DNA of 64,000 bases from an alpha proteobacterium U9-1i. GTDB taxonomy: Bacteria; Pseudomonadota; Alphaproteobacteria; Caulobacterales; Aquidulcibacteraceae. The stretch lies in assembly GCA_000974665.1 (NCBI GenBank), contig BBSY01000003.1, positions 1,054,001-1,118,000 on the forward strand, given 5' to 3'. Positions 16,346 through 39,305 of this stretch are shown piece by piece. Position 1 is the stretch's first letter; the number at the start of each line of letters is the position of its first letter. Under the pieces are notes generated by a model that had not been told where the DNA came from, did no database searches, and saw only the letters and a list, made by a program, of their open reading frames with translations. The translations under genes were made by a program, and so were the position numbers.

Positions 16346-16860
16346 GGGGGGAACCGGAACTCAGGCGGCTGTTCGATAACGAGGCTGGCGTCCTCAGGCG
16401 ATTTCTGCGCCGCTTCGGCGCAAGCGTCTCTCCAGAAGATATCGCACAGGACAGTTTCCTCCGTCTGTGCGCAGCTGACGCCAGACGGATCGTGTCGCCT
16501 CGAGCGTTCTTATTCCAAACCGCAAAGAACATGGCCGTCGATGCGCTACGCAGGAGCAAGGCAGCGCCCTATCGCGCCGTCGCGAGCATTGATCTCGTGT
16601 CGACTGCTGCGCACGCGCCCAGCGCCGAGGATCATTGCATTGCCGTTGAAGAGGCGGCAGCCGTGCGTGCTGCGATCGCGGCGCTGCCGGAACTTGAGCG
16701 CAAGGCGCTGCTGATGCGCCGGGTCGAACTGTTGCCGCCTGCCGAGGTCGCTGCGGCGCTCGGCGTGAGCGAGCGTCAGGTGCAGCGGCTCGTCTTGAAG
16801 GCCATCGCCTTTTGTCACGCCAGGCTCACCGCCGCTGACGGCGGCGCTTCGGCGCCTTAA
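16342..16860 (+). CDS. FecI-type ECF sigma factor, lasso module 1
   Basis: 172 residues with sigma region 2 (GVLRRFLRRFGASVSPEDIAQDSFLRL ... AFLFQTAKNMAVDALRR) and region 4 (ALPELERKALLMRRVELLPPAEVAAALGVSERQVQRLVLKAI). FecI-type factors are held by FecR and switched on when a TonB receptor binds its ligand. Here the receptor and a lasso isopeptidase follow, so the likely signal is the lasso peptide itself. It overlaps the previous gene by 4 nt; FecR starts 11 nt after its stop. Confidence 0.9.
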   Translation: MRGEPELRRLFDNEAGVLRRFLRRFGASVSPEDIAQDSFLRLCAADARRIVSPRAFLFQTAKNMAVDALRRSKAAPYRAVASIDLVSTAAHAPSAEDHCIAVEEAAAVRAAIAALPELERKALLMRRVELLPPAEVAAALGVSERQVQRLVLKAIAFCHARLTAADGGASAP

Positions 16861-16871: not shown

Positions 16872-17843
16872 ATGGCCCACCGCGAGCCAACACAGGCCGA
16901 ATTGGAGGCCGCGCACTGGCTCGTGGTCTTGGACGAGCCCCGCGTCAGCCGCCAAGACATCGATGCGTTCCAGGCTTGGCTTGCCGCGGACGAAACCCAC
17001 AAGCGCGCCTATGACGCGGTCTCGGCGACAGCCGACAAGATCGATGCCGTCTTAGCGACAGAACCCGTCGGACACGAGATTGGCCATCGGAGAACAAGGG
17101 TCCCAGTTCGACCGATCGCGATCGCCGCGCTCTCGGCAGCGGCCGCTCTCGCCTTGTTCGTCATCTCACCGCTCAACCCCCTTCGGGACGAGGCGAGCGC
17201 CGTCTATGCCACGGCGCCGGAACAGGAGCGCCTCGTGCGGTTAAGCGACGGCACCACGATCGAAATGGCGCCTGGCGCGCGGTTGCGGGCGAGTTTCGAG
17301 GGCGATGAACGCCACGTGCGGTTCGAAGAAGGCGTCGCGCTTTTTAATGTTGCGCACGACGCCTCGCGGCCCTTCGTCGTGACGACCAGGTTCGGAGATA
17401 TCCGCGTGCTCGGCACATCGTTCGTCGTGCGGCTCGGATCCGATGCAGCCATCACCACAGTGCTCAGCGGACGCGTCGAAGCACGCCGCGAGATGCTGTT
17501 CTCACCTGACAACAGCGTGGCGGCTTCAGCCGATCAAGAGATCGAGCTGGCCGGTGGCGCTCCCACCGTTTCAGTTCTGGCGCCGGGCGCCCTAGATCGC
17601 CGGCTGGTGTGGCGCGAGCGTATGGTGGCGCTCGACGGCCAATCCTTGCGCGAAGCAGCGGCTGAGGTGACGCGCTTTTCGGGCGTTCGCTTCGCCTTCG
17701 CCGACACCGCGACCGCGCAGGTGCGCCTCTCCGGATATGTGGCTGGAGACGACGTCGAGGCGTTTCTCGTGTTGCTAGAAAACAATGTCGGGGTCAGCGC
17801 CGATCGCCGAGCCGATGGCGTAATAGTGCTGCGCACTGAGTGA
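16872..17843 (+). CDS. FecR-type anti-sigma regulator, lasso module 1
   Basis: 323 residues. The N-terminal cytoplasmic part has the FecR_N pattern (EAAHWLVVLDEPRVSRQDIDAFQAWLAADETHKRAYDAV). One membrane span follows (IAIAALSAAAALALFVISPL, about residues 77-96), then the periplasmic FecR domain (LVRLSDGTTIEMAPGARLR ... FVVTTRFGDIRVLGTSFVVR) and a C-terminal STN-like part. It senses the receptor's signalling domain and controls the sigma factor just upstream. Confidence 0.9.
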   Translation: MAHREPTQAELEAAHWLVVLDEPRVSRQDIDAFQAWLAADETHKRAYDAVSATADKIDAVLATEPVGHEIGHRRTRVPVRPIAIAALSAAAALALFVISPLNPLRDEASAVYATAPEQERLVRLSDGTTIEMAPGARLRASFEGDERHVRFEEGVALFNVAHDASRPFVVTTRFGDIRVLGTSFVVRLGSDAAITTVLSGRVEARREMLFSPDNSVAASADQEIELAGGAPTVSVLAPGALDRRLVWRERMVALDGQSLREAAAEVTRFSGVRFAFADTATAQVRLSGYVAGDDVEAFLVLLENNVGVSADRRADGVIVLRTE

Positions 17844-17937
17844 GCGTGAGAAAAAACTCTCCGTCGTTGTCGTTTTCGGCGAGGCCGTTCGTCTCCCCTT
17901 CTTGAAGACCGAGCATGCGGTCGAAGGGGAGGTGAGC

Positions 17938-20931
17938 TTGACCAAAACCGTCAAGCGCGCGGAGCGCGTTTCGCATTGGATTGCCGGCCTGTTGTTGGGC
18001 GTGTCGCCATTGGCGTTGGCGCATGACGCACGCGCTCAGGCCAATGGCGCTTCGGTCTCCGAGGAAACTCGGATTGAATACGACATCCCCGCTCAGCCGC
18101 TCTCAAGCGCGTTGGCATTATACGCGCAACAATCCAGGCTAAGTACGCTTGTCCCAACAGATCGCCTTGCGGGCCAATTCGCGCCCGCCGTACGTGGCCG
18201 ATTAACGCGTGAAGAAGCGTTGTCACGATTACTTTCCGGGTCGAATTTGCGAGGGGAACTTACACCCGCAAATACGCTTGCGCTGGAGCAAGATCAGAGC
18301 CCCCAGCTCGACAGCGCGAACGCTGAGGCGCGCGTTCGCGCCGAAGCGACCACCGGCGCCCAGGCGGACGAGGAAATCGTAGTCACCGGGACCCGTATCC
18401 GCGGTACGGCCCCTGTCGGATCTAATGTGGTCACCATCGACCGGGCCGAGATTGAGCAAAGCGGCCTCTCCACCACTGAAGAACTGATGCGGACTTTGCC
18501 ACAAGTGTTCAACGGTGGATTCGCTCAGCACATCTCTTTCCAGAACGGCAATATCGGCGGCGGTTCTGGTCTCAATCTGCGCGGACTAGGCGCGGACGCG
18601 ACCCTGACCCTGGTCAACGGTCGGCGTCTTCCGGTCATGGGCCTGCGCGGCAACTTCACCGACATATCGAGCATTCCCGCGAGCGCCATCGAACGCATTG
18701 AAGTACTGCCCGACGCCGCGTCGGCCATCTACGGCAGCGACGCCGTCGGCGGCGTCGTCAATTTCATTTTGCGGCGCGATTTCGAAGGTTTCGAATTGGG
18801 CGCCCGGTTGGGGGCAGTCACTGACGGCGACCTGGAAGAAATGCGCATTGGCGCGGCAGCGGGCCGACATTTTGGTCCCTTGCGCCTTTTTGGCGCTTAC
18901 GAATTCTTCGATCGGACCGCGCTTCAAACCGAAGACCGGGACTACCTAGCTGACAGCGACCTTCGCGCGCTGGGAGGCGCCAATTTTGACTCGCTGCGGG
19001 GCAATCCCGCGACATTGATCGTAAGCGGGCTCGGCAACTTTGGTGTGCCGTTCGGGCAAGACGGGAGAAACATCCGCCAGACCGACCTGATCGCCGGCCT
19101 GGTCAATACCGCCAACGCAAATGAAGGCCTCGACGCCCTTCCCGAAATTGAGCAGCACGCCGTCGTGTTGAGCGCCGAACTCGACCTTTCGCCAAACATG
19201 CTGATCTTCGCCGACGGCCGCTATGCGTCGCGTAGTTTTCTGTCAGCGAACGCACACACCACACAGCGCATCACCATCCCCGCTAGCAACGCGTTCAGAG
19301 CGCGCAACAATCTCTTTCCTGGCCGCACTGTCCAGGCCGACTACGACTTCTATCGCGACCTCGGCCCCCGTCTGGAAGATGGTGAAACAACAACGCTCGA
19401 CTTGGCCGCCGGACTGCGCTGGGACCTGAGCGAAGCTTGGCTCCTTGAGCCGCAATTGGCCTATGGGCGCATCGCCAGCGATCACACCAGACGCAACTTA
19501 ATCAACATGCCGGCGCTCACCGCCGCGCTCGCCAGCAACGATCCCAACATCGCCTTTAACCCGTTCGGCGACGGCGCCTTCACCAATCCGGCAACCATCG
19601 CGTCGATCCGTGGCTTTGGCCACAGCGACCTTTTGTCGGAAACCTGGAGCGTGTCCCTCAAAGCCGACGGACCGCTCTTCTCTTTACCGGCCGGCGATGT
19701 TCGCTTGGCGTTGGGGGGCGACTATCGCCACGAATTTTTCGAGATCAGCGAAGTGAGCTTCACCACAACGGCCGCGCCGACGCCGTCGACTTCGAGCAAG
19801 AACGACCGCAACGTCGAGGCCGCGTTCGCTGAAGTGTTAATCCCCCTGTTTGGTCCAGGATTGCCTCCGCCGATCGGTGAGCGCGTCGATCTTTCGCTAG
19901 CTGGACGATATGAGCGCTACAGCGACTTCGGCGAGACGTTCAATCCGAAGGTTGGCCTTCGGTGGGACCTTTCAGATGCGCTGAGCTTGCGCGCCTCTTA
20001 TGGCCAGTCTTTCCGAGCCCCCAATCTCTCCGATTTAGATCCAGATGGCACGCTGGCGCGCCGGCAAGTGCGCGGTCTCAACATCACGGATGCAGGCGCC
20101 CCCAGCGGACGCAGCAACATCATCTTGGTACTTGGCGCTAATCCCGACCTGCAAGAGCAACGCGCTGAAAGCTGGTCGGCGGGCGCAACCTATGCGCCGC
20201 CCGCCTCGGGCTTTCGCGCCGACCTCAATTACTTCGACGTCCGGTTCTCCGATCGCATTGCCAGCATCACCAACATCGCAGGGGCGCTCAATCCCGCGTC
20301 CGAGTTTGCGTCACTAATCGATCGCAGCCCCGATCCATCCGAGATCGCTACGCTTCTTGCCGAAGCGCAGGCGCTCGGCACTAGCGGCGGCTTCAGCGCG
20401 AGCGATATCACCGTCATCGTCGATGCGCGTTCCACCAATCTGGCGCGTACGGACGTGCGCGGCATGGATTTGGCGATGTCGTATACAACAGACATCGGTC
20501 CTGGCGAACTCACGCTACGAGCGGACGCCACCTACCTGATTGACTTTCTGCGCGCGGCTTCCCCCCTCGCGAACGCGGTCAATGTCGTGGACACGGTTGG
20601 CAACCCGGTGGACCTCAAGGCGCGCCTCGGCGCGACCTATGACATCGGCCGTTTCAACGCCTCGGCCTTCGTCAATTACACCGACGAGTTTACCGACAAT
20701 CTGAGCACGCCCTCCCGGGCGGTCGATGCGTGGACGACGATTGACTTGCACCTGGGATGGCGGCTTGGCCCGTCCGATAGCGGCCGAGGTCCTGAACTGT
20801 CGCTCTCGGTTGTCAATGCGTTGGACGAGGATCCGCCCTTCGTCAACAACGCGGCGGGCGTTGGGTACGATCCAAGTAACGCCGATCCTCTTGGCCGTTT
20901 CGTCGCCGTTGAGCTGCGGACTCGCTTCTAG
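17938..20931 (+). CDS. TonB-dependent receptor with STN signalling domain, lasso module 1
   Basis: About 997 residues. A signal peptide ending AHDARAQA is followed by an STN domain (EYDIPAQPLSSALALYAQQSRLSTLVPTDRLAG), a linker, the plug (DEEIVVTGTRIRGTAPVGSN ... LRGLGADATLTLVNGRRLP ... SAIYGSDAVGGVVNFIL) and a 22-strand barrel ending VAVELRTRF. No ATG fits. TTG 17938 has GGAGG 5 nt before it; GTG 17932 and TTG 17902 are in frame. The STN domain signals to FecR. The place directly before a lasso isopeptidase (2 nt gap) points to lasso peptide import, as in astexin loci. Confidence 0.9.
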   Translation: MTKTVKRAERVSHWIAGLLLGVSPLALAHDARAQANGASVSEETRIEYDIPAQPLSSALALYAQQSRLSTLVPTDRLAGQFAPAVRGRLTREEALSRLLSGSNLRGELTPANTLALEQDQSPQLDSANAEARVRAEATTGAQADEEIVVTGTRIRGTAPVGSNVVTIDRAEIEQSGLSTTEELMRTLPQVFNGGFAQHISFQNGNIGGGSGLNLRGLGADATLTLVNGRRLPVMGLRGNFTDISSIPASAIERIEVLPDAASAIYGSDAVGGVVNFILRRDFEGFELGARLGAVTDGDLEEMRIGAAAGRHFGPLRLFGAYEFFDRTALQTEDRDYLADSDLRALGGANFDSLRGNPATLIVSGLGNFGVPFGQDGRNIRQTDLIAGLVNTANANEGLDALPEIEQHAVVLSAELDLSPNMLIFADGRYASRSFLSANAHTTQRITIPASNAFRARNNLFPGRTVQADYDFYRDLGPRLEDGETTTLDLAAGLRWDLSEAWLLEPQLAYGRIASDHTRRNLINMPALTAALASNDPNIAFNPFGDGAFTNPATIASIRGFGHSDLLSETWSVSLKADGPLFSLPAGDVRLALGGDYRHEFFEISEVSFTTTAAPTPSTSSKNDRNVEAAFAEVLIPLFGPGLPPPIGERVDLSLAGRYERYSDFGETFNPKVGLRWDLSDALSLRASYGQSFRAPNLSDLDPDGTLARRQVRGLNITDAGAPSGRSNIILVLGANPDLQEQRAESWSAGATYAPPASGFRADLNYFDVRFSDRIASITNIAGALNPASEFASLIDRSPDPSEIATLLAEAQALGTSGGFSASDITVIVDARSTNLARTDVRGMDLAMSYTTDIGPGELTLRADATYLIDFLRAASPLANAVNVVDTVGNPVDLKARLGATYDIGRFNASAFVNYTDEFTDNLSTPSRAVDAWTTIDLHLGWRLGPSDSGRGPELSLSVVNALDEDPPFVNNAAGVGYDPSNADPLGRFVAVELRTRF

Positions 20932-20933: not shown

Positions 20934-23039
20934 ATGCTGACATGGGCGATTGCCGCAGCGCTATCGTGTACGCCGCCGCAAACAGAGCCGGCGGCGACGG
21001 TGGGCGTCGCTGAGCTCATCTCCCTGCGCGACATTTCGGGTTTGAGTCTGTCCCCAGACGCAACTCGCGCGGTATATCAGGTTCAGCGAGCCGATGTCGA
21101 ACGCGACGACTATGACTCCGTGTGGTGCTTGGTCGACTTCGCTACTGGCGACATTAGCGAACTCAGCGATGGGGGCGCCATCGCGATGCCAGTTCTCGCC
21201 GGGCTTGGACGGCGAACCGGCATGTGGATGACGCTGCAGCCGCGTTGGACTGCTGACGGACGCACCGTCGCCATGCTCGTGCGCCGCGATGGGCGCATCG
21301 CATTGCAGACCTGCGAATTGCAGCGGATGCGCTGTCGACTTTTTATGACGAGCGGCGACGTTGAAGACTTGGTGTGGAGCGGCGATGGTCGGGGCATTCT
21401 CTTCACCAGCACACCGTCAGACGCACAGCGAGCAGCCGCACGCTCTGACGAGGGCGACCTCGGGTATCGCTTTGATGACCGGTTCGATGTGTTTCACGCT
21501 CTCTTTCCGCTCCGCGGTTTTGAGGCGAACCGCGAGGTGCGTTATATCGATGTGCCTGCGGGACGCGAACGCACCGCAAACGCGCAAGAGGTAGAACGCT
21601 TCCAGACGCATAGGCGCAGCCCCATTTCGACTACAATGGGCGCGGGGCGGAGCGCGACCCTGTTTGCATCCGCGCCTGTAACCCGGCCTGCCTTCTTGTC
21701 AGGGCGCGACGTGCGCGACTTCATCAGGCTTGGAGGCGACGGGGGCGCGTGGACTGAACCATCTTCCCCAGACGCGGCAGGAAGCGCACCACCGCTCACG
21801 CTTTTTGCCTCGCATGAAAGTCGTGATGTGCGGTGCGGCGCGCCGGAATGCGAAGGCTACATTGTGGAACTCGCCGCGCGTGACGAGACGAGTGTCCTCT
21901 TTGTTCGGCGCGAAGGTTGGGGGCTCAGCCGCCACGGCCTGTATCTTTGGGATATCGACACGAACACCGTCCGTCCGCTCGTCGTGACAGATGACGTCAT
22001 TCGCGTGTGCGCGCCGAGGCGCACGGATGCGATTTGTCTTCACGAGGGCCCGACGCGCCCGCGACGGATCATATCCGTGGACTACGCCAGCGGCGCAGTG
22101 CGAACGCTTGTCGACGCCAATCCGGCTCTGCCAGAGGCCGCCTTCGCGCCGGCGCGAAAGCTTGAATGGCGCAGCCCCAGGGGGGATGAATTGTTCGGCT
22201 ATTATCTCACGCCGCCCGATGCACGAGGTCCTCACCCGCTCATCATTGTGCAGTATCGCGCGACCGGCTTTCTGCGCGGCGGCGTCGGGGACGAATACCC
22301 CATTCAAGCTTTCGTGCGCGCCGGCTTTGCCGTGCTGGCGCTCGAGCGGCCCGACCCAATTGCGTTGCGCGCTGTTGTTCGGGATGCAGACGAGATCGAT
22401 CGGCGAGAATGGGAAGGACTTTCCGAGCGGCGCCGAACGTTGGCGGCGCTGACTTCCGGCATCGATCGTATGGTCGATATGGGAATCGCCGATCGCGCGC
22501 GCGTGGGCGTGACAGGTTTGAGCGACGGCGCCGAGACCGCTGTCTTCGGTCTTATCCATTGCGCCTGCATTGCCGCCGCGGCCATCAGCAGCGGCGTGCA
22601 CGACCCGATGTCGTACTACTTGACCTCAGACCGCCAGCGTGAGGCAATGCGCCTTCATGGGCGCGGGTCTGACGATATTCAGTTCTGGGACGATGTATCG
22701 CTGTCTCGACACGCCGCCCACGTAGCCGCGCCCATCCTGGCCCAAGTCGCCGATCGCGAAGCGCTCTTCATGTTGCAAGCGCAACGCACATTCTCCGACC
22801 TCAGCAAACCCTTCGATCTCTATGTGTTTCCTGATGAGTACCATGTAAAATGGCGGCCTCGACACCGGCTCGCCATCTACCAAAGGAGCCTCAGATGGTT
22901 CGAGTTCTGGCTGTTGCAGCGCGAGAGCGAGGACGCGGCGTTCGGCGATGAGTACGCGCGCTGGCGTGCCTGGCGTGTACTCCTAGCCGAGAGCGACGCC
23001 CCGCGGCAGATTGCGCAGCCAGGCCTCCACACTCAATAA
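20934..23039 (+). CDS. Lasso peptide isopeptidase (AtxE-like S9 family), module 1
   Basis: 701 residues: an N-terminal export signal, a seven-bladed beta-propeller part (residues about 30-420) and an alpha/beta-hydrolase part. The nucleophile is Ser530 in GLSDGAE, the acid Asp607 in VADREALF and the His637 in DEYHVKW. This spacing agrees with the triad known for astexin isopeptidase AtxE2. The enzyme hydrolyses the macrolactam bond of a threaded lasso peptide and is specific for the lasso shape. It follows the TonB receptor by 2 nt and its last 57 nt overlap the 3' end of the cyclase gene on the other strand. Confidence 0.88.
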   Translation: MLTWAIAAALSCTPPQTEPAATVGVAELISLRDISGLSLSPDATRAVYQVQRADVERDDYDSVWCLVDFATGDISELSDGGAIAMPVLAGLGRRTGMWMTLQPRWTADGRTVAMLVRRDGRIALQTCELQRMRCRLFMTSGDVEDLVWSGDGRGILFTSTPSDAQRAAARSDEGDLGYRFDDRFDVFHALFPLRGFEANREVRYIDVPAGRERTANAQEVERFQTHRRSPISTTMGAGRSATLFASAPVTRPAFLSGRDVRDFIRLGGDGGAWTEPSSPDAAGSAPPLTLFASHESRDVRCGAPECEGYIVELAARDETSVLFVRREGWGLSRHGLYLWDIDTNTVRPLVVTDDVIRVCAPRRTDAICLHEGPTRPRRIISVDYASGAVRTLVDANPALPEAAFAPARKLEWRSPRGDELFGYYLTPPDARGPHPLIIVQYRATGFLRGGVGDEYPIQAFVRAGFAVLALERPDPIALRAVVRDADEIDRREWEGLSERRRTLAALTSGIDRMVDMGIADRARVGVTGLSDGAETAVFGLIHCACIAAAAISSGVHDPMSYYLTSDRQREAMRLHGRGSDDIQFWDDVSLSRHAAHVAAPILAQVADREALFMLQAQRTFSDLSKPFDLYVFPDEYHVKWRPRHRLAIYQRSLRWFEFWLLQRESEDAAFGDEYARWRAWRVLLAESDAPRQIAQPGLHTQ

Positions 23040-24731
23040 GCCGACGATGCGAGGCAAATTTTCTGAGGCCCGCAATATGCTGGCTTCGCTCAATATGGCA
23101 GACAACACGTCGTGTGAAACAAGGCCGTGCCCAGCGAGCGCACCTTCTAGAAGGTATGCGCGCAGGAACGGAAGCTGCTGAAGCAGAACCTGAGCGAGGT
23201 AGGCGCTGGTCTGCCCTTTAGAGCGGCGCTGCAATACCTGTGGGGCGATGCGCCTGCCAAAGGCGTCTCGCACGAGGCCGCGGTCTTTCCCGCCGGGTGA
23301 CAGCACAAAGGTTGGCAGGCTGAGACACGCTTCAAGAACCGGTTGGGCGACAAGCGGATAGATATAATCGGCGTGCGAACGCCAATCGAAATAGTTGAGG
23401 CGATCTTCTATCAGCGCGAGATGCAGACGTTTGCCTGGGAGTAGACCTTCGGGCGCGTCCTCGACCGCCGGCAGAAGGCCAATAGCCTTGGAAGTGAGGT
23501 ACGTCGGATGAGTGCTGGGCGCCGCTGCATCGCGGCTCAGCGCCTGACGCCAAGCGCTAAACGCGCTTCCCCAAAATGGCGCGCCGGTCTCTGCGGCGTG
23601 CGACCAGCAGCGGCGCCAAAACCCGAGGCCCGGTCCGCGGGCAATCAAGCGATCGGCTAGCACGTCATTTCGCAATGTGCGGAAAAAAACGTTGTCTCCA
23701 CCCCGTCCTGAAAACAATGCCGTTAGACCGTGTTTAGCGGCGAAGGCAGCTTCGATCTCATCGGTCTCGCCATCAGCCAACCATAATGGCGGGTTGAGCG
23801 CCGGCTTCAACTGGACCGCGGCCTCAAGATTCACGCGCGAAGGATCACGCTGGGCCTCGCAAAGGGATGCGCCCGCGAACTCCGCCGCCGCGCGCGCGTA
23901 AGCGCGCTCATCTCCTTCCAGATTGGAGGTCGCGAAATTTATGGCGCGCACCCGCGATGGGTCAGGCATGCACGCAAGCACAATGCTTGAATCCAGCCCA
24001 CCTGAAAGGCGAAGACCGAACCGGGGAAAGCAATCGGCCCAGGCGCCACATGCCGTCTCCACAGCGCCCGCAAGCGAAGCTTTGGCCGCTTGCTGCTCGA
24101 TCGGCGCTGTCGCAAACGCTTCAGGGCGCCAGACCTGCTCGATGGACAGCCGTGATTGGCCGACACGAGCCACTGCGCCAGGCTTCAGTTCTGATACGCC
24201 CTCCAGGCCCGTCTTGGTCGTGATGTGACGGTTGTTCGCCAATCTCAGAGCTACATAGCCCCAGTCGACCTCGGTCGGTCCCAGTCCAACCGCATCAATG
24301 TCTTCACTGTGGGACAAAAAGATGAAGGCGTTGCCGCGCCTCGCAACGAAGCATGGCAGCGCGCCAGACGGGTCGCGAACAATGAAGACACATGCGTTGG
24401 GGACGTCACGAATGAAACAAACGTAACGGCCCCAAACACGCGTAAAGGCGACGGCCCCGCGACTCTCAATGAATTCTGCGTCGCGCAACTGCTCCGACTG
24501 AGCGCGAGATCCGCCCGCGAATACAGTCCCAATAAAGCTCACGTGCGCGCCAACGTGCAGGCCCTCCCCCGCGCTGGACCGGTGCGGCGCCTCCAGCACT
24601 GAGAGGCCAGGCGCATCGACACGATGCACCCAGTCGGAATGAGTGGTCGCTATGGCGGCAAGGACATCAGCGGCGTCCTTGGACGCGACTTCGGACTGAT
24701 AGCTCCAAACCAGCGCTATGAAACGGTTCAT
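22983..24731 (-). CDS. Lasso peptide macrolactam synthetase (cyclase, McjC/AtxC-like)
   Basis: 582 residues of asparagine-synthetase-B type. The N-terminal glutaminase-like half lacks the catalytic Cys2 (it starts MNRFIALVW), as usual in lasso cyclases. The ATP pyrophosphatase half has SGGLDSS at residues 243-249 and GRGGDNVFF near 350. It activates the Asp/Glu side chain as an acyl-AMP and closes the ring onto Gly1. It starts 2 nt after the B gene stop and is the last gene of the A1-A2-B-C unit. A remnant of a second, homologous cyclase lies at 36509-36871. Confidence 0.9.
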   Translation of the reverse strand: MNRFIALVWSYQSEVASKDAADVLAAIATTHSDWVHRVDAPGLSVLEAPHRSSAGEGLHVGAHVSFIGTVFAGGSRAQSEQLRDAEFIESRGAVAFTRVWGRYVCFIRDVPNACVFIVRDPSGALPCFVARRGNAFIFLSHSEDIDAVGLGPTEVDWGYVALRLANNRHITTKTGLEGVSELKPGAVARVGQSRLSIEQVWRPEAFATAPIEQQAAKASLAGAVETACGAWADCFPRFGLRLSGGLDSSIVLACMPDPSRVRAINFATSNLEGDERAYARAAAEFAGASLCEAQRDPSRVNLEAAVQLKPALNPPLWLADGETDEIEAAFAAKHGLTALFSGRGGDNVFFRTLRNDVLADRLIARGPGLGFWRRCWSHAAETGAPFWGSAFSAWRQALSRDAAAPSTHPTYLTSKAIGLLPAVEDAPEGLLPGKRLHLALIEDRLNYFDWRSHADYIYPLVAQPVLEACLSLPTFVLSPGGKDRGLVRDAFGRRIAPQVLQRRSKGQTSAYLAQVLLQQLPFLRAYLLEGALAGHGLVSHDVLSAILSEASILRASENLPRIVGLLSVEAWLRNLPRGVALG

Positions 24732-24733
24732 GC

Positions 24734-25378
24734 CTAGACGACCATGATTGGCGTATAACCGCGTGCGTGATCGGCGCTGTCATTCAGCACCTGGTCGCCC
24801 AGCTGCGCCCAGCAATGAGCGGCGAACGGCGCGCCCTTCACCGCGAAGACCCAGTCGACCGCTGCCCCGCGCGGACCCAGAAATAGAAGCAGCGCAAGCG
24901 TCTCGCGAAGGCACGCATTGCGCGCCGTCCCCAACGGGCGGCTCGCAGAAAAGGCGGCCGCCATGCGGACGATCGCTTCTTCAGATCGTTCGTGATTTTT
25001 TCGTCGCGCCCGCCGCTCGGAGACTATCGAACTGATATGGCTCCCGCAGAGCAGGCCCGACGCACGCCCGCGGCACAAAGCTGCGCGCGCTATGGAGAAA
25101 ACCTGAGGACGACTAGCGTAGACCTCGCGTGATGGCGTTGGGGCTTTCGCTAACGCAAGCGGACGCCCGGCGCCGTCCGCGAGCACGCGCGCCGCGCGGA
25201 GGCTTTGCACGACCTCCCCTGACAGCGGCGCGCGGCGCCTCAACTCATCGGCAAGGCGCAAGGACATTGCGCGGCTTAGTGCGCAGTAGCGATCGGCCTG
25301 GAGATCAAGGAAAACAATTGTCTCGTCGGCGAACGCCATGAACACATCAGCGCGCAATTGTGGTGTGGATCCGCTCAC
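24734..25378 (-). CDS. Lasso leader peptidase with N-terminal RRE (McjB-like)
   Basis: 214 residues in one chain. Residues 1-85 form a PqqD-like recognition element (ETIVFLDLQADRYCALSRAMSLRL) that binds the leader. The C-terminal half is a transglutaminase-like Cys protease. Cys156 (ARNACLRETL), His188 (FAAHCWAQ) and Asp200 (VLND) have the same 32 and 12 residue spacing as the triad of McjB. It cuts the leader after the conserved Thr-x to free Gly1. The start is a GTG 4 nt after the A2 stop, so translation is coupled to the precursor. Fused RRE-protease is the proteobacterial arrangement. Confidence 0.88.
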   Translation of the reverse strand: MSGSTPQLRADVFMAFADETIVFLDLQADRYCALSRAMSLRLADELRRRAPLSGEVVQSLRAARVLADGAGRPLALAKAPTPSREVYASRPQVFSIARAALCRGRASGLLCGSHISSIVSERRARRKNHERSEEAIVRMAAAFSASRPLGTARNACLRETLALLLFLGPRGAAVDWVFAVKGAPFAAHCWAQLGDQVLNDSADHARGYTPIMVV

Positions 25379-25382
25379 CGGT

Positions 25383-25478
25383 TCACATCAGCGGGTCGCG
25401 GTCCTCCATGAGATGATCTACCCCGCCTTGGGTCTCGGCCGACACCGCGCCCAGTTCGATTACTTCTTGAGCCGACAT
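25383..25478 (-). CDS. Lasso peptide precursor A2
   Basis: 31 residues. The leader (17 residues) ends EVIELGAVSAETQ, with Thr at position -2 as B proteases need. The predicted core is GGVDHLMEDRDPLM (14 residues). Gly1 can join Glu8 (ring of 8) or Asp9 (ring of 9), leaving a very short loop and tail. GGAG lies 6 nt before the ATG. It is 4 nt from the B gene and follows A1, with which it shares the core frame G-G-V-D-x-x-x-E-D-R-[DE]-P-L. Not experimentally shown; the call rests on motif, size and position. Confidence 0.85.
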   Translation of the reverse strand: MSAQEVIELGAVSAETQGGVDHLMEDRDPLM

Positions 25479-25512
25479 GTTTCACTCCGTCTCTTTTCGC
25501 CTGATAGAGCCA

Positions 25513-25537
25513 GCGCGCGGGAACACGTCCCGCGCGC
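25513..25537 (-). other. Strong intercistronic hairpin between precursors A1 and A2
   Basis: A perfect 10-bp stem, GCGCGCGGGA / TCCCGCGCGC, with a 5-nt loop, lies 13 nt after the A1 stop. No T-run follows on the minus strand, so it is not a classic terminator. It could stall decay or partly stop transcription, making A1 more abundant than A2-B-C. Confidence 0.75.
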
Positions 25538-25550
25538 CTCCTCGTGCCGC

Positions 25551-25661
25551 TTAGAAAAGCGGCTCACGGTCTTCGATTTCGGTGTCCACGCCACCGTGCG
25601 TTTGCTCGGAGACGGCGCCCAGTTCGATCGGGTCTTGTTCGAACGTGTTTTCGTCACGCAT
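25551..25661 (-). CDS. Lasso peptide precursor A1
   Basis: 36 residues. The 22-residue leader contains DPIELGAVSEQTH with Thr at -2. The predicted core is GGVDTEIEDREPLF (14 residues), with Glu8 or Asp9 as ring closing acid. AAAGGAGC is a strong ribosome binding site 6-8 nt before the ATG. The leader block IELGAVS is shared with A2, and residues 1-4, 8-10 and 12-13 of the core are identical in both. The core is acidic (five or six acid residues, one Arg). It is too short for standard gene callers and easy to miss. Confidence 0.88.
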   Translation of the reverse strand: MRDENTFEQDPIELGAVSEQTHGGVDTEIEDREPLF

Positions 25662-25732
25662 TGTCAAAGCTCCTTTGAAGGGCCGTGGCTCGGCCCAGGA
25701 GCGATGCTGCGCCTACTGGCGTCGATAAGAGA

Positions 25733-25742
25733 GTTTATAAAC
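25733..25742 (-). promoter_or_regulatory. Candidate -10 element of the precursor operon
   Basis: GTTTATAAAC is a 10-bp palindrome containing TATAAA on the minus strand, about 70 nt before A1. The same string TTATAAACT occurs in the luxR promoter at 28850-28859. No clear -35 box is seen, which suggests activator dependence. The 5' leader then holds a GGGCCG/CGGCCC hairpin (25680-25696) just before the ribosome binding site. Confidence 0.4.
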
Positions 25743-25772
25743 GTGAATATTTTGCGGGGTTCTAGCGGCGCG

Positions 25773-26393
25773 TCAGGCGCCGTTCGACGGCAGCCCTAGC
25801 AACGCCGCGCAGTCACGGATCGCCTTTGCGGCCGCCACGCGTTTGTCATGGTAAAGCCGGAGTGCGATCTTCAAGCCGCCGACGTCGCCCTTTTCTATAG
25901 CTTGATCTAAGGGAGTAAGTTCTTCCTCAACAGCAGCCCAAAGGTCGCGCTCCGCCACGCGCGCAATGTGTAACCTGTCATCGGCGTTGCGAGCTGACGC
26001 CACGAGTTCGCCGTGGGTGCCACTTTGTAACGCCGTCAACAGCGCAGCCGTACGGTCCGGATAGTCGCGGGCAACAACCTTTATGGGCGAGCTCAATGAG
26101 CTTACACTGTTCAGTGCAAGCTCTGCGAGCTCACCACGCCATCGATAGAGATCGCGCAATCCGCTTTCACTCCACATCGCCACGCTGAACCCGTGTGAAG
26201 GCCGGAAGGCCACAAGCCGCTCGGCCGTGAGGCGCAGCAATGCTTCACGCACGGGCGTTGTCGAGACGGCCAGGTCCGTAGCAATCGCACTTGCGTCAAG
26301 ACGCTGACGCAGCCGAAAGCGCCCGGCCATCAGCCTTGCCTTGATCTCCTGGTAAGCCCGCTCCGATGTTGGCGTCTCAGGCGTCCTCGCCAT
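25773..26393 (-). CDS. GntR/FadR-type transcriptional regulator
   Basis: 206 residues. Winged HTH: SERAYQEIKARLMAGRFRLRQRLDASAIATDLAVSTTPVREALLRLTAERLVAFRPSHGFSVA, followed by an all-helical FCD-like ligand domain from about residue 75. FCD domains bind small carboxylates, often with a metal. It overlaps the dioxygenase gene by 17 nt and ends about 110 nt before the lasso precursors, so it may control the dioxygenase, the lasso unit or both. The expected FCD metal ligands are not clear by eye. Confidence 0.85.
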   Translation of the reverse strand: MARTPETPTSERAYQEIKARLMAGRFRLRQRLDASAIATDLAVSTTPVREALLRLTAERLVAFRPSHGFSVAMWSESGLRDLYRWRGELAELALNSVSSLSSPIKVVARDYPDRTAALLTALQSGTHGELVASARNADDRLHIARVAERDLWAAVEEELTPLDQAIEKGDVGGLKIALRLYHDKRVAAAKAIRDCAALLGLPSNGA

Positions 26394-27276
26394 AATGAGC
26401 CTTTAGTTGACGAGCGATATCCGGCGTCAGCGCGTCAATGTGCGGTCCAGGCAGGCACTGCCCGTCCTCAAGCGCGCAGATCGGATCGCGCCCCTCCCAG
26501 CCGCCCAGGTTGGGGCGATGCATCTGGTAACCGATGAGCCGCTGTAATGGCTCTGGGAATGACCGCACGACGGCGGGCGGGTAAGCCAGGAACTGGTTTT
26601 CGTACTGCTTCAGCCAACCCAAACAATAAGAGACAATGATGCCGTCGCGCGGCGCGCTTGACCGGTTCTCGCCGGCGCCGTGCGTGAGCGCACCAAGAAA
26701 GACCAACGCATCCCCTGGCTGCATCTCCGCGGGGATTGACCGAATTGGATCAATGCTGCGATCCAGTGCGTCCGTGTGACTGCCTGGCCAAAGGCGCGTC
26801 GCCCCATTCTCTTCGGTGAAAGCAGTCAACGGCCACATCACGTTGATGAGCCAGGGGCGAAGCTTCGGTTCCTGAGGCCACATCTCTTCATCGCGGTGGG
26901 GCGCCTGGGCTCGCTCTTGCGGGTGCACGCGAATGGCTTGCGTCAGATTGAGCTGGATGCAATCGCACGACGGCTGCAGCGCCGCGCGCGTGATCGCGAG
27001 CACAGCTGGATGGAGAACAAGGTCTTGTGTTGAAGGCGCCTTGTTGAGGAGACCTCCGACCCGCGTTGTCTTCCATCCGTAAAAATCGCCTACGCACTTC
27101 GGCGTGGCGGCCAAATGCGGCGCGACCTCGGCGCAAATCAATCGCGATTTCAGATGACTGATCGCTTCTGGCAAGATGACATAACCGTCCCGCATTAAGT
27201 CCTCAAACGCTTGCGTGAAACGAGCCTCTGAATGAAGCGCCGGTTGAATGGACATGTGCGGGGTGGCGACTTGCAT
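26377..27276 (-). CDS. PhyH-family Fe(II)/2-oxoglutarate dioxygenase
   Basis: 299 residues. The metal site is H-x-D in APHRDEEMWPQ (about residue 130) and the distal His in VFLGALTHGAGENRSS, with the 2-oxoglutarate Arg expected in PRDGIIVSY. Long family blocks such as LRPWLINVMWPLTAFTEENGATRLWPGSH and CLGWLKQYENQFLAYPP are intact. Such enzymes hydroxylate small substrates or side chains. It has AGGAGG before its ATG. It sits between luxI and the GntR gene on the lasso strand, so peptide or signal hydroxylation is possible (inference); primary metabolism is the alternative. Confidence 0.85.
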   Translation of the reverse strand: MQVATPHMSIQPALHSEARFTQAFEDLMRDGYVILPEAISHLKSRLICAEVAPHLAATPKCVGDFYGWKTTRVGGLLNKAPSTQDLVLHPAVLAITRAALQPSCDCIQLNLTQAIRVHPQERAQAPHRDEEMWPQEPKLRPWLINVMWPLTAFTEENGATRLWPGSHTDALDRSIDPIRSIPAEMQPGDALVFLGALTHGAGENRSSAPRDGIIVSYCLGWLKQYENQFLAYPPAVVRSFPEPLQRLIGYQMHRPNLGGWEGRDPICALEDGQCLPGPHIDALTPDIARQLKAHYGEDA

Positions 27277-27314
27277 GGCGGCCTCCTCAACGTGTTGAAT
27301 TGTTTCGCGCGCGC

Positions 27315-27941
27315 TCAGGCGGCACGCGCCAGCCCGGCATCAGCGAAGCGCGTAACAGGACCGGTTAGCCGCGCCCGTTGGCGTACGGCGGCAAGGCCAT
27401 CGCTGGTGACGTCGGCCAGCATGGCGACGAGACGCTCTCGCCCCATCCTCTGCTTTGGCCCCAAGGCGCGCACGTTCCAGCCCGCTTGATCTGCAAGCGG
27501 CGCCAGCGCGGCGCCCGCGACGAAACTCACTTTCTCAATTCCGAACAGAATCGAAGTCTCCAGGATGCCTGCGATCATCCGCGCCAACAGGTCGCGACGG
27601 GGCGCGCCTTTCGCAATGGTTGGCGCGGGGCAGAATCGGGATGCCTCCCAAACGCGCGCCGACCGCGGCGGTCCATCGTCGCAGAGCTTGGCGAACACTT
27701 CGCTCATAAGATGTGGCGAGAGCGTTGGCAGTAGCCGCGCCGATTGCTGCACGTCGCCGTTTGCATCCACATCAATCAGATACATTGCCTCCTCGCTATC
27801 GAACTCGTCGATCTCAAGGCCCATGCTTTCGCTCAGCCGCCAATGCATGCGGTCGATGAACACCTGCTTGCGCTGGCGATGCATCTCCATCAGCGCGTGA
27901 TGAAAGAGACGGCGATTGTCGCGCGTGATGATCTGGATCAT
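27315..27941 (-). CDS. Acyl-homoserine lactone synthase (LuxI family)
   Basis: 208 residues from ATG 27941, which has GAGG 5 nt upstream and starts MIQIITRDNR as family members do; an upstream ATG at 28034 would add 31 residues. All key LuxI residues can be placed: MHRQRKQVFIDRMHW (Arg, Phe, Trp), GLEIDEFDSEEAMYLI (Glu, Asp, Asp), ARLLPT (Arg), VWEASRF (Glu and Arg). It makes an N-acyl-homoserine lactone from SAM and an acyl donor. The gene follows luxR on the same strand and precedes the dioxygenase. The acyl chain length is not readable. Confidence 0.92.
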   Translation of the reverse strand: MIQIITRDNRRLFHHALMEMHRQRKQVFIDRMHWRLSESMGLEIDEFDSEEAMYLIDVDANGDVQQSARLLPTLSPHLMSEVFAKLCDDGPPRSARVWEASRFCPAPTIAKGAPRRDLLARMIAGILETSILFGIEKVSFVAGAALAPLADQAGWNVRALGPKQRMGRERLVAMLADVTSDGLAAVRQRARLTGPVTRFADAGLARAA

Positions 27942-28054
27942 GAGCCTCGTGTCCTCCGCACCGAACTCCGTGAGATTGAGGGCAGACGCGTGCGCTCTGC
28001 TATGGGCCGATCGGCCCATTGACGCGCTTCGCACCGGACGCAGCTGTGGAGAAG

Positions 28055-28789
28055 TCAGTCCGCCAGATCGGACAAGGTCAGCGTGCCGTCGAGATAAGCG
28101 AACATGATCGCTTGGATGCGCGAGCTCACCCCATAGCGCGCTCGCGCATGCTCGATTGTGTGTTTGGCAGTCGCGGTCTTAATGCCGAGGATATCTGCGA
28201 TCAACGGATCGCTCTTGCCGCGGGCTGCAAGCGCCAAACACTCCTTCTGGCGCTTCGTCAACACGACCGGCTTTCGCGTCTCACCCGTCGCGCGCAGCCG
28301 CGCTTCCTCGTGGGCGTGAAACGCCATCAATTGTAAGTCAGGCACGATGAGAGGATCGATGCCGTCAGGACCAGGCACAAGCGAACACGACGCCGGCAGC
28401 GCACCGGGCGAATGAATGGGAATGGTCAATCCCTTCCTCAAGCCGCATTCCGCGGCTTCGTTCAGAATCCGGCGCTGGTCACGCGCCAGATCGTATTGGA
28501 CCACGAACTCCTCCCACCAAAACGGCAGGAGTGCGTTGTGTGCGCCGAAGAAAATTGGATCGCGGTTGGCGTATTTCTTATCCGAAAACCAGACCAGCCA
28601 AGGGTGCGGATAGTTAACGATGGCGACGGCGCCTGTCGGGGGCTTCAGCGGATCGACATGCGAGGCGCAGGCAACATATCTGATCCCGCAAGCCTCCATC
28701 TCCGCAAAGAGAAAACGCGCGATATCCTCTGCCGAAGCAGCCGCCCGGCACTTTTGCACAAAGTCCAACGTGGCCTCACGCCGGCCCAT
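28055..28789 (-). CDS. LuxR-family quorum-sensing regulator
   Basis: 244 residues. The autoinducer-binding domain keeps the usual contacts: PHPWLVWFSDKKYANRDPIFF (Trp, Tyr, Asp-Pro), FWWEE (Trp) and GLRKGLTIPIH (Gly). The C-terminal GerE-type HTH is LTKRQKECLALAARGKSDPLIADILGIKTATAKHTIEHARARYGVSS. It is the cognate partner of luxI 20 to 110 nt downstream. All minus-strand genes from here to the cyclase point the same way, so the lasso genes are its natural target. Confidence 0.92.
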   Translation of the reverse strand: MGRREATLDFVQKCRAAASAEDIARFLFAEMEACGIRYVACASHVDPLKPPTGAVAIVNYPHPWLVWFSDKKYANRDPIFFGAHNALLPFWWEEFVVQYDLARDQRRILNEAAECGLRKGLTIPIHSPGALPASCSLVPGPDGIDPLIVPDLQLMAFHAHEEARLRATGETRKPVVLTKRQKECLALAARGKSDPLIADILGIKTATAKHTIEHARARYGVSSRIQAIMFAYLDGTLTLSDLAD

Positions 28790-28806
28790 CGTCTACTCCG
28801 CCCTCC

Positions 28807-28859
28807 GCGCGCTCAGGTTGAACCCTAAGCGCGCCGTTTTTCAAGTGAATTGCAAGTTT
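28807..28859 (-). promoter_or_regulatory. luxR promoter: -10 element and inverted repeat
   Basis: TATAAA (28853-28858) inside TTATAAACT serves as a likely -10. A 28-bp imperfect inverted repeat, GCGCGCT (28807-28813) / AGCGCGC (28828-28834) with inner CAGG/CCCT, follows in the leader 18 nt before the start. It might be an operator or an RNA hairpin. It is not a textbook lux box. Confidence 0.4.
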
Positions 28860-29041
28860 ATAAGCATTGCATGGCGCCCATTCTCGCAGCGCGCGACGTG
28901 GGCGCTGGCCCCATCCCGGGAGGCGAGTCGCCCCTCTCGGCATAACCTCATCGCACCCTGTCTACCCGCTTCCGATGATCGCCCTCGTGGCTAAGTGGAA
29001 TGGTTTGGCGTCACGTGCCGCCGCGCGTCAGAAACTGCTCA

Positions 29042-29557
29042 ATGCAACGCATCAGCTTAGTGGCGCCAACGCGGGCTGTCGCATTAGGCGGCTTGCTCAC
29101 TTTTGCTCTGTGTCTCGGCATCGGCTTTGTTGCCGTATCGACGCTTTCCGACGTCGTCATCTACAATGCGAGCCCGTCGATGCCCCAAGGCATCTACGTG
29201 CGTATGCACTCGCCAATCGTGCGCCATTCAATCGTTACCGTGCGGGCGCGGGATGTCGCGCTGAACTATGCGACAGCGCGGCGCTTCACAGACGCAAACG
29301 ATCGGTTTCTCAAACGCGTCGCCGCATTGGATGGCGATGTCGTCTGTGCGCTTGGTCCCCTGGTAACCATCAATCACGAGCTCACACTTCGGCGTCGAAC
29401 GTTGGACAACGCCGGACGCGCATTGCCGACTTGGTCAGGATGCCGGCGCCTCGATGATCAAGTTTTCCTGATCGGCGACACGGCGGACAGTTTTGACGGC
29501 CGTTATTGGGGACCGGTTGCCTCGGACCTAATTGAAGGCGTTTGGCGTCGGCGATGA
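29042..29557 (+). CDS. traF: Conjugative transfer signal peptidase TraF (S26 family)
   Basis: 171 residues from ATG 29042 (ATG 29000 also in frame). N-terminal membrane span (AVALGGLLTFALCLGIGFVAVSTL), catalytic Ser in NASPSMPQGIY and catalytic Lys in DRFLKRVAALDGD, then FLIGDTADSFDGRYWGPVAS, the closing box of the family. In conjugation TraF matures the pilin. It is divergent from luxR and lies alone here, without other mating-pair genes. Its 3' two-thirds and the following leader are repeated at 36872-37384, where the gene is broken. Confidence 0.85.
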   Translation: MQRISLVAPTRAVALGGLLTFALCLGIGFVAVSTLSDVVIYNASPSMPQGIYVRMHSPIVRHSIVTVRARDVALNYATARRFTDANDRFLKRVAALDGDVVCALGPLVTINHELTLRRRTLDNAGRALPTWSGCRRLDDQVFLIGDTADSFDGRYWGPVASDLIEGVWRRR

Positions 29558-29716
29558 CGCCGCGCACCGCGCCGGGCCACTTCTTGTCGCACGCCGCCCT
29601 GCTCCGTGCGGTCAAGGGACGCTGCGCTCTTCGCCCTTGACCGCGCATGCCGGCGTGCAGCGCGAGCATCGCCCGGCGCGGCTCCTCGCGTGCGGGCGAT
29701 GGAGTGAATGCGATGA
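29203..29716 (+). repeat. Direct repeat, copy 1 (traF 3' part plus hairpin leader)
   Basis: About 514 bp match 36872-37384. By eye about 50 differences fall in the ~355 bp of traF but only about 7 in the ~157 bp of non-coding leader. The leader holds two perfect hairpins: GCGGTCAAGGG/CCCTTGACCGC (29608-29618, 29634-29644) and CATCGCCCG/CGGGCGATG (29667-29675, 29693-29701). Homology ends at the ATG (29713) that in copy 2 starts parB. The rest up to 29975 shows no gene. Confidence 0.9.
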
Positions 29717-29975: not shown

Positions 29976-30512
29976 ATGAGTTCGCCGCCGATCCCCGAGT
30001 CCAGCGGCCTCGGTTCGCCACAGCGTGCGGGCATCGTGGCGCGCTATCGGGAGCCGTTGATACGCTACTTTTTGCGCAAAGGGATGAATGAGCCCGCATC
30101 CGAAGATCTGGCCCACGACACGTTTTTGAAGCTCTTTGCTTTGGCGCGCACCGATCATGTCGAGAACATGGAAGCCTATCTCTTCCAGATCGCCCGGTCG
30201 GTCTTCAACGATCATCTGAGCCACCTCGAGGTGCGCCGGCGCAATCACGGCATTGTCGAAAGCCTCTGGGGAGAAAAAACTGAGACTCGGACGCCCGAGC
30301 GCGTCTTAGAGGGCAAAGCCGCTTTCGCACGATTTGAAAGCGCACTTGCCGAATTGAAACCTAAGACACGAGACATATTCCTGATGAACCGGATGGAGGG
30401 GCTCTCCTATACCCAGATCGCCGTCCGCCTTGGCGTGACGCCCAGCGCAATCGAGAAGCACATCTCGACCGCGATCGCCCATTTCGTTCGCCGCTTGCGG
30501 GATCATCGATGA
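29976..30512 (+). CDS. FecI-type ECF sigma factor, module 2
   Basis: 178 residues. Region 2: VARYREPLIRYFLRKGMNEPASEDLAHDTFLKLF ... NMEAYLFQIARSVFNDHLS. Region 4: ALAELKPKTRDIFLMNRMEGLSYTQIAVRLGVTPSAIEKHISTAIAHF. It is only distantly like the sigma factor of module 1, so the two modules are not a recent duplication. Its stop overlaps the fecR start (ATGA). It begins about 260 nt after repeat copy 1. Confidence 0.9.
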   Translation: MSSPPIPESSGLGSPQRAGIVARYREPLIRYFLRKGMNEPASEDLAHDTFLKLFALARTDHVENMEAYLFQIARSVFNDHLSHLEVRRRNHGIVESLWGEKTETRTPERVLEGKAAFARFESALAELKPKTRDIFLMNRMEGLSYTQIAVRLGVTPSAIEKHISTAIAHFVRRLRDHR

Positions 30513-31549
30513 AGGGGACCGCTTCTCCTCCCGAAGGCGATGAGCCCATGAATTTGACGGATGAGGCCAGCGCCTGGTTTGCGCGGATGCATTCCGACCA
30601 GGTCATGTCGGAAGACGAAACCGCGTTCGTCGAATGGCTCGAGGCTAATCCTCAACATCGCAAGGCCTATGAGGAGGTCGCCGCGGTATGGGGCGGGCTG
30701 GGCGAACTGCGCGGTGATCCGGCCATGCGCCCCTTGCTCAGCCATTTGAGCGATGATGTCGAAGCGTCTCCAAAGCGCGGCCTTGATCGCCGGCGCCTGT
30801 TGCAGGCTGCTGCAGCCTCCATTGGCGTGTTGGGTGTGGCTGGCGCAAGCTGGTTCGGCGTGAGTGAGTTCGCCGGCGCTGAGACCTATCAGACGGCCTT
30901 TGGCGAGCAAAGGCGCGTCGCGCTTCAAGATGGCTCCACGCTTACCTTAAACACTGAAACCAAAGTGCGCGTGCGCTTCACCGAGACCGAGCGCAGGCTT
31001 TGGTTGGATCAGGGACAGGCTTACTTCATCGTGGCGCCGGATCGCACGCGACCGTTCCGGGTGTTCGTTGGCGATGAAGAAGTTCGCGCGCTAGGTACGC
31101 AATTTGAAGTGCGCCGTGATGGCGATCAGATGAAGGTCACGCTCGAAGAAGGGTCGGTCGCGATCATCCGCCGCGCCAGTCAAGAAGTGCTGCGCGCGGA
31201 CACGCCAGCACCTGCCGATGTCGTGCTGGAGATGGGACAACAGGCGATCGTGGCGCCAGCGGAGGCCATTCAAGTGGCGGTGGTGGATACGCGGCGGATG
31301 ACGGCATGGCGCTTTGGACAGATGGCGCTCGACGCTGATCGGCTCTCGTATGCCGTCACCGAACTCAATCGCTACAACACCAGACAGATCGTGATCGACA
31401 GTCCAGAGCTACAGTCGTTGCAGATCTCGGGCCTATTTCAGACCGGGTCGCCGGAAGCATTCGTCGAAGCGATTTCGGCCGTGCTGCCCGTCGAGGTTGC
31501 GAGCCAGGACGAGCGCTCGATCCATCTTGTCTATGCGAGAGCGAACTGA
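30509..31549 (+). CDS. FecR-type anti-sigma regulator, module 2
   Basis: 346 residues. FecR_N region with ASAWFARMHSDQVMSEDETAFVEWLEANPQHRKAYEEVAAVWGGLGEL. A DRRRLLQAAAASIGVLGVAGASWFG segment follows (about residues 93-117), with a twin-arginine motif as in many FecR proteins. Then come the FecR domain (RRVALQDGSTLTLNTETKVRVRF ... FRVFVGDEEVRALGTQFEV) and the STN-like C-terminus (LSYAVTELNRYNTRQIVIDSPELQSLQISGLFQTGSPEAF). A second start at 30548 (MNLTDEAS) fits family length better. It controls the sigma factor before it. Confidence 0.9.
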   Translation: MKGTASPPEGDEPMNLTDEASAWFARMHSDQVMSEDETAFVEWLEANPQHRKAYEEVAAVWGGLGELRGDPAMRPLLSHLSDDVEASPKRGLDRRRLLQAAAASIGVLGVAGASWFGVSEFAGAETYQTAFGEQRRVALQDGSTLTLNTETKVRVRFTETERRLWLDQGQAYFIVAPDRTRPFRVFVGDEEVRALGTQFEVRRDGDQMKVTLEEGSVAIIRRASQEVLRADTPAPADVVLEMGQQAIVAPAEAIQVAVVDTRRMTAWRFGQMALDADRLSYAVTELNRYNTRQIVIDSPELQSLQISGLFQTGSPEAFVEAISAVLPVEVASQDERSIHLVYARAN

Positions 31550-31662
31550 ACACGTCCATGAACTATTTGTTGAGGCTCAATGGACTTGGCCCGTCTTCAG
31601 GACGAGCACCACTCAGAACGGGGACCATCCCCGCGACCCAATGTGCTCGAGGGGGAGTCATC

Positions 31663-39231: not shown

Positions 39232-39305
39232 CGGGCAAACGAAGCGCCGCTGCGGGGAGTTTGACCCGCGGCGGCGCAACGTCGTTTGGACGTGGGGACG
39301 TCCTT

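Follow-up and report, generated by a model that had tools for sequence, protein, structure and literature searches.

A lasso peptide locus adjoining a luxR-luxI-phyH module in the alphaproteobacterium U9-1i and its relatives

A stretch of 64,000 nucleotides from the alphaproteobacterium U9-1i (Aquidulcibacteraceae; contig BBSY01000003.1, positions 1,054,001 to 1,118,000), hereafter called the window, carries a locus in which a luxR-luxI-phyH module for signaling by acyl-homoserine lactones (AHLs) is joined to a complete isopeptidase-type lasso peptide cassette. The latter consists of gntR-A1-A2-B-C and the convergent genes of an isopeptidase, a TonB receptor, FecR and FecI. The whole is probably a composite locus in which the production of lasso peptides is linked to cell density. 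Sequence comparison establishes the parts themselves, the conservation of their linkage, the co-evolution within each of two blocks, the mosaic borders and a covarying palindrome, and these carry the reading.

The locus and its conservation in the family

The original prediction, made from the DNA letters, had placed eight minus-strand genes at 22983-28834. All eight were confirmed, and the domain matches follow the predicted order luxR-luxI-phyH-gntR-A1-A2-B-C (table 1). The FecI, FecR and TonB receptor genes which had been thought missing are present just outside that interval, together with an AtxE2-type isopeptidase. As an AtxE2-family isopeptidase, a TonB receptor and FecR/FecI lie beside A-B-C, the window therefore holds a complete isopeptidase-type, astexin/benenodin-like lasso locus plus the AHL module. 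The genes luxI and luxR adjoin the biosynthetic genes in the same direction, as expected of a quorum-sensing pair embedded in a cluster, and the co-directional luxR-luxI-phyH order with a homologous PhyH is that of the sphingomonad modules. Because the eight-gene set is kept at the protein level in >20 loci, it is well beyond chance.

In the signaling half, the domains of LuxI and LuxR are present with their catalytic and ligand-binding residues. LuxR residues W64/D77/P78/W92/G120 are conserved, with the spacing of TraR. LuxI starts at the ATG at 27941 and not at the mechanically called GTG at 28034, and the M-I start is kept among its homologues. The genes phyH and gntR share 17 nt.

In the lasso half, the two precursors divide into leader and core as MRDENTFEQDPIELGAVSEQTH|GGVDTEIEDREPLF (A1) and MSAQEVIELGAVSAETQ|GGVDHLMEDRDPLM (A2). 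Both show Thr at leader position -2, Gly1 in the core and Asp/Glu at positions 7-9. Their leaders resemble benenodin leaders; formal membership of the benenodin family (NF033522) was rejected, with 22.5 and 27.8 bits against a cut-off of 33 and a match to the leader part only. Nearly every surveyed locus has two precursors. The leader is constant and the cores are highly varied among the 33 tabulated, all of which have Glu at position 8 or 9 (composition alone would give ~24% per core).

The enzymes B and C had been recognized from the triad C156/H188/D200 and the motif SGGLDSS, and this assignment is borne out by domain matches and conserved catalytic residues: C and H of the triad are found in 27/27 homologues of B and D in 24/27, and SGG-DS is invariant in 27 homologues of C. 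C scores above the cut-off of PF00733 and below those of the NCBIfam lasso cyclase models. The isopeptidase 1 gene is convergent with C and overlaps it by 57 nt at its 3′ end; its best solved relative is the AtxE2 structure and its GLSDG serine motif is conserved. The N-termini of the isopeptidases resemble signal peptides in sequence. FecI/FecR/TonB units flank the locus on both sides, and no ABC (ATP-binding cassette) exporter or immunity gene was recognized within the cluster.

The survey covered 60 genomes of the same family, with up to 20 kb read around matches, and gave 26 loci (window included) in which C and the isopeptidase are present and the contig extends at least 5 kb upstream. 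luxI and phyH are found in 25 of them, where 2.6-4.5 kb separate luxI from C. The physical wiring of lasso biosynthesis to a LuxI/LuxR pair, which had been predicted from the window and would have been contradicted by a random association in relatives, is supported by these loci, and the linkage is not due to chance. Three loci whose contig starts within phyH (L092, L096, and L097) and three whose contig is cut too near to judge the presence of lux genes (L163, L165, and L166) stand outside this count.

Another contig of the same genome repeats the entire arrangement, with two other precursors (cores GIPKQDEVEDLTERNFKD and GIPVWMHEESTGEMDYRD). In this copy, PhyH and LuxI are 59% and 58% identical to those of the window, and B and C just 27-28%. 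A related genome that carries the locus (L189) is deposited as Terricaulis sp.; its contig is the one also found in G437, a member of the window's genus. Other B2/C-like loci of the family (L167-L173) are devoid of isopeptidase and lux genes, and represent another type of lasso peptide or of a related peptide.

Outside the family, four loci of another Caulobacterales family (L220-L223) have luxR-luxI-phyH divergent from gntR-A-B-C; a further synthesis locus of that family (L227) has no lux genes on its short contig. In the gammaproteobacterium Povalibacter uvarum (L207), of which strain DSM 26723 carries a version, the order is luxR-luxI-phyH-A-B-C, and the genes of isopeptidase and TonB receptor converge on it. 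luxI is absent from the lasso loci seen in other families (L230-L234). In three Sphingomonas loci (L208, L210, and L211), luxR-luxI-phyH-gntR occurs without recognizable lasso genes, in agreement with the modules published for Novosphingobium and Sphingobium (PMC3704786, PMC5012321, PMC4288048). A class-wide isopeptidase survey, in which the best 3 candidates per genome were scored, matched one other genome, whose family has 5 members. Relatives of LuxI in the plasmid collection are 36% identical at best.

Two blocks and the borders of exchange

Mantel tests on the distance matrices of 24 complete loci separate the locus into two blocks. Correlations are r 0.85-0.91 within LuxR/LuxI/PhyH, 0.92-0.96 within B/C/isopeptidase and 0.34-0.43 between the two blocks; among related sequences these tests are descriptive, and their permutation p-values do not remove shared ancestry. 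When thinned to 17 loci, LuxI versus C falls to r 0.11 (p 0.16) and B versus C is still 0.92. GntR is intermediate. By these distances, the members of each block co-evolve, and the blocks hardly do so with each other.

The exchange of cassettes is visible in single pairs of loci. Between the window and L067, LuxR, LuxI and PhyH are 99%, 96% and 92% identical, and B and C 24-27%. Of the two cores of L033 and L072, one is the same in both loci and the other almost so; C is 73% and LuxR 43% identical between them. The receptor of genome G430 is a mosaic: residues 1 to ~180 are 71-83% identical to TonB1 of the window, and the remainder matches TonB2 at about 93-100% identity but TonB1 mostly at 18-65%. 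FecR of G430 is 95% identical to FecR1 although the receptor barrel differs. By this mosaic, the signaling N-terminus of the receptor (~180 aa) stays with FecR/FecI, and the barrel travels with the peptide genes. As judged from the alignments, the borders at which peptide-receptor cassettes are exchanged fall at phyH/gntR and at the boundary of signaling domain and barrel in the TonB receptor. The lasso genes with their presumed cognate barrel and isopeptidase are swapped between strains as a unit, and the signaling ends stay. Since the peptide half is swapped and the signaling half is not, a density-gated, strain-specific peptide system is suggested.

The region 29976-36521 of the window contains FecI2, FecR2, TonB2 and isopeptidase 2 without matching synthesis genes of their own. 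A remnant of C abuts a direct repeat of the S26 region at 36872/36873. The corresponding locus of G429 (L064) is without this 7.2-kb segment, and its flanks are joined there, with ~512 bp shared. The simplest reading is that of an earlier second unit which lost its synthesis half with luxR-luxI-phyH-gntR and kept receptor and isopeptidase. By identity, the orphan pair would fit the lasso type of another strain (that of the relatives G430/G415).

Units of FecI/FecR/TonB/isopeptidase with no recognizable B or C nearby are also found in L225 (G523:C2), L228 (G650, cut by the contig end) and L229 (G456), and L174 (G427) is a receiver-only unit with a truncated isopeptidase. Receiver-only loci seem to be recurrent. 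Further along the window (37315-44625), genes for ParB-domain, ArdC anti-restriction, SSB and relaxase-like proteins (the relaxase match is below cut-off) mark an integrated or mobilisable element. On the other side, a gene resembling RND-type efflux pumps in sequence (3604-6777) is flanked by minus-strand genes (6793-9308).

Table 1. Features of the lasso-AHL locus and its surroundings, numbered from the first letter of the window
Feature	Position	Strand	Basis
LuxR-type AHL receptor/regulator	28055-28789	-	Autoind_bind PF03472 83 bits, GerE PF00196 37 bits
LuxI-type AHL synthase	27315-27941	-	Autoind_synth PF00765 95 bits; AHL synthase 6wns E 4e-32
PhyH-type Fe(II)/2-oxoglutarate dioxygenase, placed in the quorum-sensing module	26377-27276	-	PF05721 95 bits
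GntR regulator, hinge between both blocks	25773-26393	-	PF00392 52 bits
A1 precursor	25551-25661	-	predicted core GGVDTEIEDREPLF
A2 precursor	25383-25478	-	predicted core GGVDHLMEDRDPLM; leader motif, core E at 8/9
B, leader peptidase	24734-25378	-	Transglut_core3 PF13471 61 bits; NCBIfam lasso B2 NF033537 63 bits, cut-off 33
C, asparagine synthase-like lasso macrolactam synthetase	22983-24731	-	Asn_synthase PF00733 74 bits
AtxE2-type lasso peptide isopeptidase 1	20934-23039	+	NF033523 614 bits, cut-off 400; AtxE2 5txc E 1.3e-79
TonB-dependent receptor 1 (TonB1)	17902-20931	+	NCBIfam TonB receptor matches; mosaic comparison
FecR1, anti-sigma/sensor	16872-17843	+	FecR 70 bits
FecI1, ECF (extracytoplasmic function) sigma factor	16342-16860	+	Sigma70_r4_2 44 bits, r2 36 bits
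Candidate lux box, perfect 18-bp palindrome ATGGGCCGATCGGCCCAT between luxR and luxI	28002-28019		covarying homologues
Putative operator/promoter element for GntR in front of A1, AATATTCACGTTTATAAACTCTCTTAT	25725-25751	-	conserved in gntR-A gap
TraF-like S26 signal peptidase, mobile-element gene at module border	29000-29557	+	PF10502 63 bits
FecI2	29976-30512	+	profile match
FecR2	30509-31549	+	profile match
TonB receptor 2 (TonB2)	31558-34617	+	barrel about 93-100% identical to receptor of G430/G415 lasso type; N-terminus differs
Isopeptidase 2, intact, orphan	34614-36521	+	NF033523 538 bits; 94% to L067 isopeptidase
C synthetase remnant, last 120 aa	36512-36871	-	96% identical to residues 495-614 of L067 C
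Direct repeat of S26 region 29204-29716, rearrangement junction	36873-37384	+	G429 comparison

Regulation and the place of PhyH

The palindrome ATGGGCCGATCGGCCCAT has no other match in the window at <=3 mismatches; a lux-box match in front of A1 was thus rejected as a candidate. Homologous palindromes stand at the equivalent place in most loci, with GTCA(A) conserved at their front and inner bases that covary on both arms (AATAGGCACGTCCGTGCCTATT, AATAGGCCTGATCAGGCCTGTT, and AATAGGTCCCGTGGGACCAATT). Shuffling each locus gave values of 0.003-0.06 in most, which are uncorrected and come from related loci.

The gap between gntR and A1 covaries in sequence with the DNA-binding domain of GntR (r 0.71, p 0.0005), and hardly with C (r 0.12, p 0.08). 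Because the gap follows GntR in this way, its conserved element AATATTCACGTTTATAAACTCTCTTAT may be a GntR operator. The structural model of GntR (AlphaFold2, pLDDT 88) has a FadR/FCD-like fold, with TM 0.77 to 2hs5. At high density, LuxR bound to AHL would occupy the palindrome before luxI and raise luxI-phyH-gntR. Read-through, together with GntR acting as a relay at the element before A1, would then let lasso production track density, and the peptide would in this manner come under quorum-sensing control. Once exported, the peptide would be recognized by a cognate TonB barrel, which would pass the signal on to FecR/FecI by way of its N-terminal domain; after import, the peptide would be linearised by the isopeptidase.

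The phyH gene is intact, and its iron site and the Arg for 2-oxoglutarate (H127/D129/H199/R210) are invariant. The closest solved relatives, by sequence and by fold, are Fe/2-oxoglutarate oxygenases of secondary metabolism (model pLDDT 71, which is middling); PHYHD1 is just a weak match (E 1.4e-4). PhyH also comes after LuxI where there are no lasso genes (L026, L034, L098-L102, L208-L214, and L235-L237) and is absent from lasso loci without lux genes (L164, L230, L231, and L234). Its distances track LuxI (r 0.89) over C (r 0.41). Since it accompanies LuxI whether lasso genes are present or not, PhyH most likely belongs to the signaling module and is not a peptide hydroxylase. The original prediction had allowed for both roles, of which the one on the signal is retained. 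The substrate is left open in PMC5012321 as well; here PhyH would probably oxidise the AHL or its acyl precursor.

That PhyH is a tailoring enzyme which hydroxylates the lasso peptide (+16 Da) is very improbable. It is suggested by the position of the gene next to the lasso genes and by the secondary-metabolism relatives. It was set aside as a main reading because PhyH accompanies luxI in lasso-free loci, also in published ones (PMC3704786, PMC5012321), is missing where lasso loci have no lux genes, and diverges along with LuxI, not with B/C.

Rival readings and relation to known systems

Several observations weigh against a density-linked composite locus. The sole unlinked locus among the 26 (L164, genome G418) has no lux genes, and the same genome holds L078, a luxR-luxI-phyH-gntR module without lasso genes; as the two are separate there, the cis linkage has been dispensable at least once. 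L069, L070, L071 and L080 have a weak palindrome or none. Inspection of the gntR-A gap revealed no lux-box-like palindrome before A1, and AHL control of the lasso genes would therefore be indirect. GntR is not confined to the union of both halves, being found in lasso loci without lux genes (L230, L231, and L234) and in lux-phyH loci without lasso genes (L208 and L210-L213). In addition, most of the relatives are metagenome-assembled genomes. As a side observation, L078 and L164 look like the two pieces of a single locus that was broken between gntR and A1.

These separations in G418 could also mean that the signaling module and the lasso cassette are mere neighbors hitchhiking on a mobile element, with no regulatory link and with AHL controlling transfer or something else. 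The mobile-element genes beside the locus (ParB, ArdC, relaxase-like, and S26), the near-independent histories of the two blocks and the virB genes adjoining lux-phyH modules in Sphingobium (PMC4288048) point in the same direction. Nevertheless, the linkage is retained in 25/26 loci despite repeated cassette exchange, similar linkages occur in another family, there with a divergent layout, and in a gammaproteobacterium, and gntR overlaps phyH and sits between the blocks in the same direction. Hitchhiking is accordingly regarded as unlikely, and the composite, density-linked locus is preferred. The peptide itself could conceivably be a bacteriocin of narrow range that acts on close kin, like microcin J25 or capistruin, and the isopeptidase would then provide immunity. 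Cassette swapping with retained orphan isopeptidases is typical of toxin-immunity loci, and the highly varied cores behind a constant leader and E8/E9, the orphan receptor and isopeptidase of the window, the receiver-only units (L225, L228, and L229) and the signal-peptide-like isopeptidase N-termini would all suit such a role. On the other hand, the producers also have a TonB receptor of their own with FecI/FecR, through which they would take up the toxin that they make, and the cluster has no recognized exporter or immunity gene.

Equally conceivable is a siderophore-like role as a scavenged carrier or signal: the peptide would be produced at high density, taken up again through TonB and opened inside the periplasm, and strains that have the receptor only would be receivers or cheaters. 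The FecI/FecR-TonB signaling that accompanies each cassette agrees with this role. A siderophore-like hypothesis for isopeptidase-type lassos is discussed in PMC11006600, which cites Chekan 2016. However, strong diversification and exchange of the cores exceed the needs of a carrier, for which no cargo is known. A modular kin recognition is put forward tentatively as quite possible: a shared AHL module and an exchangeable cassette of lasso peptide, receptor barrel and isopeptidase, recombining at fixed functional borders, would generate strain-specific, density-gated peptide alleles, and remnants of receptor plus isopeptidase would be receiver-only or immune alleles.

These loci bear on the question of what isopeptidase-type lasso peptides do. 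The joint movement of peptide, barrel and isopeptidase, while the density sensor and the FecI/FecR end stay, suggests a matched peptide-receptor pair. Natural allele swaps and receiver-only strains are material for testing the toxin, carrier and signal hypotheses, the loci supply ~30 predicted lasso cores along with the receptors predicted to match them, and a candidate set of target genes is offered for luxR-luxI-phyH modules, which were known before but had no explanation.

Biosynthetic clusters that contain a quorum-sensing pair, isopeptidase-type lasso loci and luxR-luxI-phyH modules are already known. The adjacent AHL circuit and PhyH gene had been predicted to be an unusual addition to a lasso locus. 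This stands for the union with a lasso cassette, of which, as of cassette exchange at these borders, no report was found in the open-licence PMC papers searched; it does not stand for PhyH beside luxI, which is not the novelty because the arrangement luxR-luxI-phyH(-gntR) is known from Novosphingobium and Sphingobium (PMC3704786, PMC5012321, PMC4288048). These modules share the gene order with the window, sometimes with gntR directly after phyH, but no lasso genes are among those reported downstream of them, which in topology T are virB genes.

The bactobolin cluster of Burkholderia thailandensis (PMC6963729) resembles the window in its embedded LuxI/LuxR pair (btaI2/btaR2), which controls the antibiotic cluster; bactobolin is not a lasso peptide, and exchange of a receptor/isopeptidase cassette is not described there. 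Capistruin of Burkholderia is a lasso peptide too, and its production is discussed with AHL-influenced regulation (PMC6963729), but the AHL effect is indirect via the repressor ScmR, and the capABCD cluster is without luxI/luxR and has an ABC exporter instead of isopeptidase/TonB. A close likeness is to the astexin/benenodin loci of Asticcacaulis (AtxE2) and to sphingocin of Sphingomonas BPH (PMC11006600), with which the window shares A-B-C, the adjacent AtxE2-type isopeptidase, the TonB receptor, FecI/FecR and a similar leader. A link to luxI/luxR/phyH is not reported for those clusters, whereas loci of the window type have it, together with two precursors nearly throughout and the exchange of whole cassettes.

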